Assembly: GCF_022808935.1 (NCBI RefSeq)
Contig: NZ_JAKZFR010000001.1
Span: forward strand, 744,001 to 808,000
DNA length: 64,000 nt
Origin: Geothrix sp. SG200
GTDB lineage: Bacteria > Acidobacteriota > Holophagae > Holophagales > Holophagaceae
Direction: 5' to 3'
A program made the translations under genes and the position numbers. Each line of letters begins with the position of its first letter. Within the stretch, counting starts at the first letter, position 1. Shown piece by piece: positions 3 to 5,980 of this stretch. The notes beneath the pieces are model-generated. The model searched no databases. It saw only the letters and a program-made list of their open reading frames with translations, and was not told where the DNA came from.

Positions 3-374
3 GGGGTGGACCCCTACCGCTACCTGCTCCTGCCCCGCTGGGTGGGCGTGCTCGTGGCAGTCTTCGCCCTGGTGGTGTGCTTCGACGCGGCGGCCCTCGG
101 GGGGGGCTTCCTGGTGGCGCGGCTGAAATACGGAATCACCTGGGGCTTCTTCATGGAGTCCGTGCGACAAGCGCTGTCAAATCTGGATTTCACGGCCACC
201 CTTCTGAAGGTCTTCTTCTTCTCGGGCGCCATCACCTTCCACGCCTGCCACTTCGGCCTTGGCGTCCGGCGCAGCCAGACCGAGGTTCCCCAGGCCGTCA
301 CGAGGACGGTGGTCTCCGCCCTGGTGGCCGTGTTCGTCGTCGACGGCCTCCTGGCCGCATGCTTCTACTTCTGA
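3..374 (+). CDS. mlaE: MlaE-family ABC permease, C-terminal part (truncated by window start)
   Basis: This is the C-terminal ~124 residues of an MlaE/Ttg2B-type permease, the inner-membrane channel of an ABC system that moves phospholipids between the inner and outer membranes. The visible part starts inside the conserved region ending in DPYRYLLLPR. Hydrophobic segments follow (about residues 12-35, 62-78 and 98-122), as does the family-typical end VVSALVAVFVVDGLLA. The full protein is usually about 250 aa, so the first half lies upstream of the window. Its stop (TGA, 372-374) overlaps the ATG of the next gene as TGATG, indicating translational coupling with the MlaF-like and MlaD genes. Only the family assignment is certain; the substrate is inferred from the operon. 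Confidence 0.85.
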   Translation, partial: GVDPYRYLLLPRWVGVLVAVFALVVCFDAAALGGGFLVARLKYGITWGFFMESVRQALSNLDFTATLLKVFFFSGAITFHACHFGLGVRRSQTEVPQAVTRTVVSALVAVFVVDGLLAACFYF

Positions 375-1039
375 TGCTCCAGGTCCGCGGTCTCGCCTGC
401 GCTCTCCCTGATGGCCGGCCTCTGGTGGAGGGACTGGACCTGGACCTCTCGCCGGGTCAGAACCTCCTGGTGGCGGGCGCAGACGGAATGGGAAGGGGCC
501 ACCTGCTGAAGGTGCTTGCCGGCACAGAGCGTCCCAGGGCTGGCGAGGTGGCGGTCGCGGGCATCCCTGTCTGGCCAGGGGAGGGCGCCCTCGGACTGGC
601 GGGGCGGGTCCGCATGGGGTTCGCCTTCCCCACCGGCGGGCTGCTGTCGAACCTCAGCCTGGCGGACAATGTGGCCCTCCCGCTGAGGTTCCTGGGACTC
701 TCCCGAGGGGAGGTCGCCCGCCGGACTGGAGAAGCTCTGACGCGGCTGGGGCTGGAGCCGGTGGCGAACCTCCGCCCCCATGCGGTGAGCGCGGCGGCGC
801 GGAAGCATGCCAACCTGGCTCGGGTGCTGGCTCTGGGCCCGGAGCTGATCTTCCTGGACGCGCCCCTGGAGGGACTGGACGCCACCGATCGCAGCCTGGC
901 CCTCGGCCTCATCTCAGGCTGGGCCCTGGATTCCGGTTGCACCCTCGTCCTGGCCACGGAGGGGGCGGACCTGCCGCCAGGGCCGGACTTCCAGACGCTG
1001 GATCTCCGCGCACACCACTCGCCTTCGGAGCCGTCATGA
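374..1039 (+). CDS. MlaF-like ABC ATPase homologue with degenerate active site
   Basis: A 221-aa ABC-ATPase-fold protein between permease and MCE genes, the place of MlaF. The start at 374 is chosen because it overlaps the mlaE stop (TGATG); an in-frame ATG at 359 is possible. Overall MlaF layout is kept (LADNVALPLRFLG, ELIFLD, EGLD), but the catalytic motifs are lost. Walker A (residues 35-42) reads GADGMGRG, with Lys replaced by Arg and Ser/Thr by Gly. The Q-loop Gln is Pro86. The LSGGQ signature is VSAAA (138-142). The residue after the Walker B Asp is Ala163, not Glu. The H-loop His is Glu196. The frame is open with normal codon use and is coupled to both neighbours, so it looks maintained. 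It is probably unable to hydrolyse ATP; a structural role or a separate ATPase elsewhere is inference. Confidence 0.8.
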   Translation: MLQVRGLACALPDGRPLVEGLDLDLSPGQNLLVAGADGMGRGHLLKVLAGTERPRAGEVAVAGIPVWPGEGALGLAGRVRMGFAFPTGGLLSNLSLADNVALPLRFLGLSRGEVARRTGEALTRLGLEPVANLRPHAVSAAARKHANLARVLALGPELIFLDAPLEGLDATDRSLALGLISGWALDSGCTLVLATEGADLPPGPDFQTLDLRAHHSPSEPS

Positions 1040-2196: not shown

Positions 2197-2751
2197 ATGG
2201 GCAGCATCGCAACCATCCACAACGGCGTGAACGTGGACGCCATGAACGCCACCGTGTCGGCGGTGAAGGCAAACCCCGGCCTTGCGAAGTTCACCTTCCG
2301 CTCCAAGGCCAAGTGGATCAACGGGGCCCACTCCCAGAGCACCTTCGACTCGCTCTACGGAGCGGGGGAGGAGCACAAGCGGAGCATGCCGATGTTCCTG
2401 GAAGCCGACGAGCCGGAGGCCCTGCTGGGCACGGACCTGGCGCCGAACGCGGGTGAGGCCGCCCTGCACGCCCTCAGCGCGTGCCTGAGCGTGACCTACG
2501 CCTACGCGGCCGCGGCCATGGGTCTGGACATCAGCAGCCTCAGCTTCGACATGGAGACGGATTCCGACATCCGGGGCTTCCTGGAACTCGACAAGAACAT
2601 CCGGCCCGGGCTGTCCCAGATCCGCGTGAAGGTGAACCTCGCCTGCAACGGCACCTCGGCGCAGATCCAGGAGCTCCACGACTGCGTCGTGCGGACGTCG
2701 CCCCTCTATGACACCTTCAAGAACCCCGTGGACATCAAGCTCAGCCACTGA
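2197..2751 (+). CDS. OsmC family peroxiredoxin-like protein
   Basis: A 184-aa OsmC/Ohr-superfamily protein, probably a thiol-dependent hydroperoxide reductase acting in the cytoplasm. Two conserved Cys sit where the family has its redox pair: LSACLSV (about residue 97) and HDCVVRTSP (about 167). The beta-rich N-terminal half contains FTFRSKAKWINGAH, and the C-terminus NPVDIKL is typical of the OsmC/YhfA-like group. The start at 2197 is preceded by a strong ribosome binding site (GAGGAGG, about 2186-2192). A ~195-bp gap separates it from mlaD, so it likely has its own promoter. Physiological substrate unknown; stress protection is inferred from the family. Confidence 0.85.
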   Translation: MGSIATIHNGVNVDAMNATVSAVKANPGLAKFTFRSKAKWINGAHSQSTFDSLYGAGEEHKRSMPMFLEADEPEALLGTDLAPNAGEAALHALSACLSVTYAYAAAAMGLDISSLSFDMETDSDIRGFLELDKNIRPGLSQIRVKVNLACNGTSAQIQELHDCVVRTSPLYDTFKNPVDIKLSH

Positions 2752-4195: not shown

Positions 4196-5980
4196 ATGCG
4201 AACCCTCTCCTGGCCCCTTCCGGCGGCAACGCTCATCCTCGCGGCGCTCCCCGTCGCCGCGCAGGGCAGCGGAGACCTCCTGGCGCAGGCGCACCATGCC
4301 TGGCTTGGCGGGGAAGGGCTTGCCCGGGATCGGGGCAGGGCCGCGGAGCTCTACCGGAAGGCGGCCGTGGCCGGCGATCCCGAAGCGATGGCCCATCTCG
4401 GGAGGATGCTCTTCCGGGGCGAGGGGATCCCGAGAGATCCCGCAGAGTCCCGGACGTGGCTCGAGGCCAGCTCGGCGAGGGGGAATGCGCGCGGGCTCTA
4501 CCATCTGGCGGAGCTGTACCAGAACGGTTTCGGGGTGGCCGCAGACCAAGTCCGGTACGCCAGGCTGCTCCGGTCGTCGGCCGAGAAGGGGCTTCCCGAT
4601 GCCATGGCCGAACTCGGCCAATGCCTCGAGAGAGGGCGGGGCACCGCCCGGGATGAAGCCGAGGCCCGGCGGTGGTTCGACCGAGCGGCCCAGAGGGATC
4701 CCGCGCAATTCGCCTGTCTCGCGACCCTGGCCTGGATGCATGAACGCGGCGCCGGATTCCCGAAGGACCCCGTAAAGGCCATGGCGTTCGCTCGCGAGGC
4801 TTCCAGGCGGGGTGAGCACCACGGCTCCGCCATGGTGGGGAGGTATCTGGCCGAGGGCATCGGGACACCTGCGGATCCCGCCTCGGCGGTCTCCTGGTGG
4901 ACGCGTCCGGAATGCCTGGAGGACCCTACGGCCCTGGAGGGCCTCGGGCTGCTCTTCCTCGAGGGGCGGGGCGTGGCGAAGCAGGAGACACAGGCCTTCC
5001 GTCTCTTCCAGGCCGCCGCCCGCCTCGGATCGGGGTCTGCGTGCTACTGGGTCGCGGACTGCTTCGCGACCGGGCGGGGCACCCCCAAGGATCCCGCGAG
5101 CGCGGTCTCCTGGTTCGCCAAGGCCGCTGCCGAGCAGGAACCATGGTCCTTCGGCCGATTGGCCACGATGTACCACCAGGGCGAGGGGGTGGCTCCGGAC
5201 GACCGGCGCGCCGTCGCCTGGCTGAAACAGGGGGAGGCCCTGGGATCGGCCTTCGCAGTCTACCTCCTGGGCTGGTTCACCGAGAATGGCTGGGGGCTGG
5301 AGAAGGACGGGGCCCGGATGCTGGCCTACTACCAGGAAGCCGCGGACCGGAAGTTCGCGCTCGCGTGGTACCAGCTGGGCCATGTGTTCATGGCCGGGGT
5401 CCTCGTCCCGAAGGACCCGGTCCGTTCCTTCGAGTGCTTCGAGATGGGCGCCAGCATGGGCCAGGTGCGGGCCCAGCATCAGGTCGGATGGGCCTATCAG
5501 AATGGGCTTGGCGTGGTGCGCAATCTCACGGAGGCCTTCCGGTACTACCAGATGGCGGCCGACCAGGGGAACCCGACCTCGATGAGCCAGTTGGGCATCT
5601 TCCACGAACGGGGTTGGGTGGTCCCCAGGAACGCCAGTAGGGCGCTCGAGCTCTACCTGAAGGCCGCGGCCCAGGGGCATGCGCTGGCCTGGGAGAACGC
5701 GGCGAACCTCTACGAGCATGGCGCAGATGGCATCCTGCAGGACCTTCCCAAGGCCCGTCGCGCCTTCGCCGAATCCGCCGCGCTCGGACGCGCCTCGGCC
5801 ATGGCGTCCATGGGGCGGTTCTTCGAACTGGGGCTGGGCGGCGAGGCCGATCGCGACCAGGCCCTGGCGTGGTACCGGAAGGCCATGGACATGGGGGACC
5901 GGGACGCGCAACTCGCCTATGTCCGCCTCACGGCCCCGGCCGAGCCGGAGGGCCCGGAACCGGCTGAGGACGCGCCCTGA
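4196..5980 (+). CDS. Secreted Sel1-repeat protein
   Basis: A 594-aa protein with an N-terminal signal peptide (MRTLSWPLPAATLILAALPV, cleavage probably near AQG) followed by about 14 consecutive Sel1-like (SLR) repeats to about residue 580. Each repeat shows the consensus A..LG..(F/Y).(E/R)G.GV..D...A..(W/Y)...AA, for example LGRMLFRGEGIPRDPAES. Such solenoids are protein-interaction scaffolds; in Gram-negative bacteria they are often periplasmic. The start is chosen for the signal peptide and because upstream codons are antisense to carbamate kinase. It stands alone between opposite-strand genes. Partner unknown. The repeats are divergent at DNA level, so this is an old expansion. Confidence 0.85.
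   Translation: MRTLSWPLPAATLILAALPVAAQGSGDLLAQAHHAWLGGEGLARDRGRAAELYRKAAVAGDPEAMAHLGRMLFRGEGIPRDPAESRTWLEASSARGNARGLYHLAELYQNGFGVAADQVRYARLLRSSAEKGLPDAMAELGQCLERGRGTARDEAEARRWFDRAAQRDPAQFACLATLAWMHERGAGFPKDPVKAMAFAREASRRGEHHGSAMVGRYLAEGIGTPADPASAVSWWTRPECLEDPTALEGLGLLFLEGRGVAKQETQAFRLFQAAARLGSGSACYWVADCFATGRGTPKDPASAVSWFAKAAAEQEPWSFGRLATMYHQGEGVAPDDRRAVAWLKQGEALGSAFAVYLLGWFTENGWGLEKDGARMLAYYQEAADRKFALAWYQLGHVFMAGVLVPKDPVRSFECFEMGASMGQVRAQHQVGWAYQNGLGVVRNLTEAFRYYQMAADQGNPTSMSQLGIFHERGWVVPRNASRALELYLKAAAQGHALAWENAANLYEHGADGILQDLPKARRAFAESAALGRASAMASMGRFFELGLGGEADRDQALAWYRKAMDMGDRDAQLAYVRLTAPAEPEGPEPAEDAP

Follow-up and report, generated by a model that had tools for sequence, protein, structure and literature searches.

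The window, a 64,000-nucleotide stretch of DNA from a Geothrix genome (G000:C1:744001-808000), begins inside a three-gene operon on the forward strand. The 3′ part of mlaE, encoding an E1-type permease (MlaE1), occupies positions 1 to 374; it is followed by the gene for F1, a 221-amino-acid pseudo-ATPase ABC protein at the mlaF position (374 to 1039), and by mlaD (D1; 1036 to 2001), whose 321-amino-acid product has a single MCE domain (Pfam MlaD, PF02470) and a further C-terminal part. The mlaE1 gene starts upstream of the window, at G000:C1:743586. Its whole product scored 203.5 bits against Pfam MlaE (PF02405; cut-off, 22.5 bits) and so belongs to the MlaE permease family; the part encoded in the window scored 101.5 bits. 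For MlaD1, the PF02470 scores were 42.5 bits in the window and 45.7 bits in the genome search, both over the cut-off. F1 is translationally coupled between mlaE and mlaD: the mlaE stop codon (TGA, 372 to 374) overlaps the F1 start codon (ATG, 374 to 376), and the F1 stop codon (TGA, 1037 to 1039) overlaps the mlaD start codon (ATG, 1036 to 1038). The initial annotation of this DNA had placed a coupled mlaE-F-D arrangement here, and its coordinates for F1 were exact. Across 40 Geothrix loci, F1 was accompanied by mlaE1 in 39 and by mlaD1 in all 40.

Canonical relatives of F1 carry the motifs GxSGxGK[ST], FQ, [LI]SGGM, DEP, and [TS]H. The corresponding positions of F1 are described here with forward-strand coordinates derived from the residue number n as 374 + 3(n − 1). 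Walker A reads GADGMGRGH (residues 35 to 43; 476 to 502), with Lys replaced by Arg at residue 41, Ser replaced by Gly, and the P-loop glycines kept. The Q-loop reads FAFPTGG, with Pro for Gln at residue 86, and together with the segment that follows it (residues 83 to 108; 620 to 697) makes up the region expected to contact the permease. The ABC signature is VSAAA, as opposed to LSGGM in canonical relatives (residues 138 to 142; 785 to 799). At the end of Walker B, LDAP (residues 161 to 164; 854 to 865) has Ala for the catalytic Glu and retains the Asp (D162), and the H-loop TEG (residues 195 to 197; 956 to 964), within LATEG, has Glu in place of His. Every substitution named in the initial annotation is present. 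Its statement that all five motifs are lost holds insofar as each has lost a key residue, but it goes too far for the Walker B Asp and the P-loop glycines. Measured against a functional ABC ATPase, F1 thus retains the ABC fold and the Walker B Asp; absent are the Walker A Lys and Ser/Thr, the Q-loop Gln, an LSGGQ-like signature, the catalytic Glu, and the H-loop His.

The fold had been described as kept, and both profile and structure searches bear this out. F1 scored 51.5 bits against Pfam ABC_tran (PF00005; cut-off, 25), and its AlphaFold2 model has the fold of an ABC nucleotide-binding domain (NBD), with a mean pLDDT of 90.7; the best solved structures found by Foldseek were FtsE, LolD, and MlaF. 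A second model, of L134 from a branch that wholly lacks the Walker A Lys, had a mean pLDDT of 90.6, with LolD, FtsE, YbbA, and MlaF as the best solved structures. The C-terminal extension (~25 amino acids) is absent from F1, which ends at 221 amino acids; F2, the canonical homologue in the same genome, continues to 263 in the alignment. In E. coli, deletion of this extension of MlaF and the MlaF substitutions K47A and E170Q are reported to abolish complementation (PMC7367683), and K47R is reported to abolish both ATPase activity and complementation (PMC5016091). Since these mutants, including one with the same Lys-to-Arg change, fail to complement and since F1 has no C-terminal extension, hydrolysis of ATP by F1 appears very unlikely.

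Orthologues of F1 were found in 36 of the 41 Geothrix genomes searched, the window genome included (E value of 2.9e-58 or better). The other five (G020, G026, G030, G033, and G035) gave distant ABC matches only. In an MlaE search, from which G020 and G026 were omitted, G030 and G035 (>90% complete) matched the other MlaE type only and G033 gave no match. The E1-F1-D1 operon is therefore dispensable, as some Geothrix genomes (G030, G035, and G033) do without it. Beyond Geothrix, the E1-type operon occurs in six other genera of the Holophagaceae (g3, g5, g6, g7, g9, and g10). When the MlaE of locus L150 (genome G142) was used as the query, 33 of 396 Acidobacteriota genomes matched at an E value of 1e-40 or better, two of them outside the Holophagaceae (G142 itself and G236), each with a coupled degenerate F. 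When the F1 alignment was used for a pattern search of named genomes, 76 loci were returned and were judged by titles, identities, and lengths only: 32 were 44 to 74% identical and titled Geothrix, Holophagaceae, or Acidobacteria, and the remaining 44, at 23 to 41% identity, were other ABC matches. No F1-type protein outside Acidobacteriota was seen in this non-exhaustive search.

Motifs were tallied in 56 F1-type proteins: 40 from Geothrix, 14 from other Holophagaceae (one truncated), and those of L150 and L163. None has the complete set of ATPase motifs. Neither the H-loop His nor the pair of signature glycines occurs in any of the 56 (one is truncated at the H-loop), and the H-loop residue is Glu in 44. 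The Q-loop Gln is present in two (L150 and L163) and the catalytic Glu in seven, with Asp the most frequent replacement (32/56). The Walker A Lys and the Walker B Asp are kept more widely, in 39 and 54 proteins, respectively, so that ATP binding may persist in most relatives. Because 39 of the 56 keep the Walker A Lys, complete loss is a trait of the window species, the two closest relatives searched, and some other branches. On the MlaE1 tree this Lys was lost at least three times: in a trio consisting of the window species, G025, and G017; in L020; and throughout the 12-row branch holding g3, g5, g6, g7, g9, and G236. (L142, which is truncated, and L022, with no mlaE on its contig piece, were left out of that tree and are counted among the 56.) Motif degeneration is old and stepwise, and the three-species group of the window is a late stage of it. 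A loss confined to the window genome, with intact relatives and decay only here, is ruled out by the degenerate F1 of those relatives. The F1 of one locus, L009 (G039:C16), extends to 253 amino acids; its altered end reads into the mlaD region, perhaps because of a sequence or assembly error.

The state of F follows the type of MlaE beside it. In a comparison of 52 loci (31 of the 56 F1-type loci and 21 canonical ones, with further known canonical loci left out except L164 and L176), F was degenerate beside E1-type MlaE in 31 of 31 cases and canonical beside other MlaE in 21 of 21. Removal of six duplicate loci reduced another F alignment from 42 to 36 rows. In the MlaE tree, which has long branches, E1-type MlaE forms a single clade (support, 100/100) whose branch measures 1.49 changes per site. 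L163 (G236:C52:16500-25500), from another family of Acidobacteriota, fell on the non-Geothrix Holophagaceae branch in the MlaE trees. This placement suggests transfer or a contaminated bin, and the number of separate lineages may accordingly be smaller than it appears.

Because many long frames overlap in this DNA, an open frame is weak evidence in itself and the weight lies on dN/dS. For F1, dN/dS was 0.305, 0.295, and 0.298 in the three pairs of the trio without the Walker A Lys, compared with 0.073, 0.087, and 0.100 for mlaE1, 0.153, 0.153, and 0.162 for mlaD1, and 0.097, 0.143, and 0.110 for canonical F2. Neutral simulations (600 per pair, with the mutation spectrum taken from fourfold sites) never gave a pN/pS as low as that observed for F1 in any of the three pairs (0/600 in each), and the F1 matches listed contained no stop codons. 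Over 153 genome pairs, the median dN/dS was 0.38 for F1 (range, 0.12 to 0.72), 0.18 for mlaE1, 0.26 for mlaD1, 0.15 for mlaE2, and 0.09 for F2, making F1 the fastest-evolving of the operon's three genes. Synonymous divergence was also higher: in two close pairs with the window, dS was 0.22 and 0.26 for F1 versus 0.17 and 0.20 for mlaE1, and in four wider pairs it was 0.68 to 0.88 for F1, ~2- to 3.5-fold the mlaE1 values (0.25 to 0.38), with mlaD1 at 0.45 to 0.50. The raised dS hints at weaker selection on codon usage or a different mutation regime within a single operon. When the mean dS of mlaE1 and mlaD1 was taken as the scale, the dN of F1 came to 0.34 to 0.59 in five pairs. Given these scaled values and the higher dS, the constraint on F1 is real but relaxed, clearly below that on an active NBD. 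F1 is under purifying selection after loss of the Walker A Lys. The maintained pseudo-ATPase proposed at the outset is thus borne out, and across the lineage, with a dN/dS of ~0.30 in the trio and not a value near 1.

To locate the constraint within F1, we compared column entropies between 31 F1-type and 21 canonical F proteins. Mean entropy rose from canonical to F1-type proteins at Walker A (0.42 to 1.62), the signature (0.68 to 1.54), Walker B (0.53 to 1.06), and the H-loop (0.92 to 1.96), but it did not rise over residues 83 to 108, from the Q-loop onward (1.11 to 0.98). Among the 47 columns near-invariant in canonical F, F1-type entropy was 2.03 for catalytic columns versus 1.14 for the rest (Mann-Whitney P value of 0.005). 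This is a fairer comparison than a permutation test on eight catalytic columns (0/20,000), which is inflated because those columns begin near zero entropy. The stretch from 83 to 108 had the fourth-lowest entropy of 175 sliding windows in F1-type proteins, after only the overlapping ones starting at 80 to 82, and ranked 63rd of 175 in canonical F. Within it, F1-type proteins have near-invariant residues peculiar to them: N93 and P103 are found in 31 of 31 and G89 in 30 of 31.

In ABC transporters, the Q-loop region of the NBD receives the coupling helix of the permease. The coupling helix of E1-type MlaE conserves L.GE.D.L (at ≥90%), and that of other MlaE conserves V..Q.DA; in mlaE1 of the window genome, the segment reads LNGEVDAL and is encoded in the part of the gene that precedes the window. 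The MlaE coupling helix between TM2 and TM3 is reported to mediate contact with MlaF (PMC7790496), and the EExDA loop of mycobacterial YrbE is described as a strong candidate for a shared MceG-binding site (PMC9947336). By homology with these systems, F1 would contact MlaE1, and from the changes on both sides we infer that the interface diverged jointly.

We call F1 an MlaF by position. Its best NCBIfam model was FtsE (85.4 bits) and its MlaF score was 61.9 bits, both far below the cut-offs; the 441-bit cut-off of the MlaF equivalog model (NF008809) is strict for this phylum, since canonical F2 of the same genome reaches only 219.5 bits. In the best F tree, built with motif columns removed and marked by long branches, F1 grouped with six ABC proteins of its own genome that we named FtsE/LolD/MacB-like by eye (support, 97/89), and an AU test with 11 F1-type rows, L150 not among them, did not reject a grouping of F1 with MlaF (P value of 0.207). 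Another F tree, with 20 of the 31 F1-type rows including L150, placed F1 weakly (40/75) and set the very divergent L150 F apart from the other F1 rows. With one tree favoring the FtsE/LolD/MacB-like proteins and the AU test leaving MlaF, we dropped F1 as a proven MlaF orthologue; it may descend from MlaF or from another ABC ATPase. FtsE-, LolD-, and MacB-type proteins resemble F1 in length (~220 amino acids) and include its best NCBIfam model; they are active ATPases that work with other permeases, unlike F1, which sits with MlaE and MlaD.

Besides E1-F1-D1, the window genome has a second mlaE-F-D operon, at C1:1195448 to about 1198477, which encodes canonical F2 along with the only other MlaE and the only other MCE protein of this genome. 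F2 (263 amino acids) carries all the ATPase motifs and is the kind of second, intact MlaF for which a search had been suggested. A third, orphan MlaF was not seen in this genome, in which no ABC match past F2 itself was more than 38% identical to F2. Another MlaE accompanied the E1 type in 44 of 44 genomes (in G021, just a fragment at a contig end), and in a set of 18 Geothrix genomes F2 was seen next to this other MlaE, in one of them only in part. ATP sites of ABC proteins are composite, with the Walker side and the signature side contributed by two subunits. As F1 has lost both sides, pairing it with F2 would leave no intact site, which makes a mixed dimer unlikely. This leaves an ATP-free complex, which we favor, or replacement of F1 by F2 on MlaE1, and the co-occurrence of the two MlaE types fits either. 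MlaD2 (L039) is 488 amino acids long and matches Pfam MlaD, together with weak, below-cut-off coiled-coil-like models; its C-terminal stretch looks beta-rich by eye. It may be a membrane-spanning form, like that reported for Veillonella (PMC10665443).

The conserved object at this locus is a pseudo-ATPase in an MlaE-type lipid transporter, and the question it raises is how such a transporter is energized. With moderate confidence, and from sequence comparisons and predicted structure, we favor the reading that F1 is a catalytically dead NBD retained for a structural role with the permease of its operon. The support computed for it comprises the coupled operon, the incomplete motifs in 56 of 56 proteins, the predicted fold, purifying selection, and a Q-loop segment that is better conserved than any other part of F1 against drifting catalytic columns. 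Two F1 subunits would cap the MlaE1 dimer on its cytoplasmic side and stabilize it, and the pair would hold or gate the conformation of MlaE1 without ATP hydrolysis. E1-F1-D1 could then serve, between the inner membrane and the MCE ring, as a channel or gate through which lipids are exchanged along their gradient or by means of an energy source outside F1, and the canonical mlaE2-F2-D2 system would do ATP-driven work separately. Against this reading, we know of little precedent for an ABC transporter whose own NBDs need not hydrolyze ATP. In its favor, the passage of lipid from MlaD to MlaC has been described as spontaneous (PMC7790496), so some steps need no ATP. More tentatively, the same reading might extend to a whole MlaE-type clade of Acidobacteriota, in which pseudoenzyme NBDs on both sides of the permease would make a lipid conduit or gate that needs no hydrolysis, in cells that also have a normal, ATP-driven Mla system.

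MlaE1 might instead be powered in trans by F2, much as MceG is reported to be common to Mce1 and Mce4 and to stabilize them (PMC9947336); F1 would then be an assembly or regulatory subunit or would alternate with F2 on the permease. That F2 is intact and has no close second among the ABC proteins of the genome (none >38% identical) and that the other MlaE co-occurs with the E1 type in 44 of 44 genomes, with F2 alongside in 18 Geothrix genomes, would fit such sharing. We nevertheless consider it unlikely, as the E1 coupling helix and the expected contact segment of F1 have both diverged from the canonical pattern, and neither possible arrangement is attractive: the mixed dimer would be without an intact composite site, and an F2 homodimer on E1 would give F1 no evident reason for retention. 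Lower still do we rate the idea that F1 is an ATP-binding, non-hydrolyzing switch, in which bound ATP shuts the NBD dimer and so gates MlaE1, and from which the window group is derived, having lost binding too. The retention of the Walker A Lys in 39 of 56 proteins and of the Walker B Asp in 54, with Asp as the commonest residue at the catalytic Glu (32/56), speaks for binding in much of the family; both signature glycines, though, are found in 0 of 56, and with at least three losses of the Lys on the MlaE1 tree, binding is not required family-wide.

The two remaining readings of F1 fare much worse. Decay of a gene whose frame is preserved only by translational coupling to mlaD would account for the start and stop codons that overlap both neighbors and for a dN/dS in the trio two to three times that of F2. 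It is largely refuted, and we regard it as very improbable, given a dN/dS of ~0.30 after Walker A loss, neutral simulations that never reached the observed pN/pS (0/600 for each of three pairs), the persistence of F1 across six more genera of the Holophagaceae and in two other families with no stops in the matches listed, the near-invariant residues on the expected permease face, and a confident ABC fold in two divergent branches. An atypical active site, using for instance the Glu found in place of the H-loop His, might still allow hydrolysis by F1. The case for it is the presence of that Glu in 44 of 56 proteins, but of the 10 rows shown of the non-Geothrix branch, which is also without the Walker A Lys, 8 do not have it, and the same single Lys-to-Arg change is reported to inactivate E. 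coli MlaF (PMC5016091); we give this reading very little credence.

The favored arrangement, with F1 as a dead partner of MlaE1, differs from each of the systems that it resembles. PqiAB and YebST (LetAB) are MCE lipid systems without an ATPase subunit; unlike E1-F1-D1, they have a PqiA-type membrane protein instead of MlaE and no NBD-like subunit, and PqiA-type neighbor genes of MCE systems have been described (PMC5561183). MlaFEDB of E. coli, A. baumannii, and P. aeruginosa shares with the Geothrix operon an MlaE-family permease and a single-MCE-domain MlaD with an ABC NBD gene between them, and MlaF (6xbd) superimposes on the F1 model with a TM-score of 0.77 over F1, but F1 has lost key catalytic residues, has no C-terminal extension, and is 221 amino acids long versus 263 for F2 of its own genome. 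Mycobacterial Mce1 and Mce4 likewise have an MlaE-type (YrbE) permease whose power may come from an ATPase encoded outside the operon; the MceG that they share is described as canonical (PMC9947336), whereas the Geothrix operon encodes its own degenerate NBD-like protein. Heterodimeric ABC exporters (TM287/288, BmrCD, and Rv1273c/72c) are reported to retain degenerate motifs within an ABC transporter, as F1 does, but they are described as keeping one full site; F1 is the only NBD of its operon and has lost both site halves.

The E. coli Mla system is reported to require a working ATPase (PMC7367683, PMC5016091), and the direction of Mla transport is described as still debated (PMC7500953, PMC10212509). 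A conserved dead-NBD transporter of Mla architecture poses a testable question: what MlaE and MlaD do without hydrolysis. A search of open-access titles and the beginnings of abstracts, with most subscription papers and bioRxiv preprints outside its scope, turned up no mention of a degenerate MlaF; the same search gave degenerate-site heterodimeric exporters and MceG and no dead MlaF. To our knowledge, it would be rare for the sole NBD encoded with an ABC permease to be fully degenerate and still maintained by selection.

No extra partner gene was common to all 24 neighborhoods compared, besides the mlaE, F, and D clusters and a reverse-strand frame over them, in a clustering so coarse (the 25 largest clusters, many spurious frames, and flanks of a few kilobases) that a weak or distant partner could escape it. 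Outside the window and directly upstream of mlaE1, the operon is adjoined by a gene for a CAP-domain protein (PF00188, 53.8 bits; L040:1914-2540). Downstream of the operon lie an OsmC-family gene (60 bits; window positions 2197 to 2751) and a long frame with putative Sel1-like repeats noted by eye (4198 to 5980).
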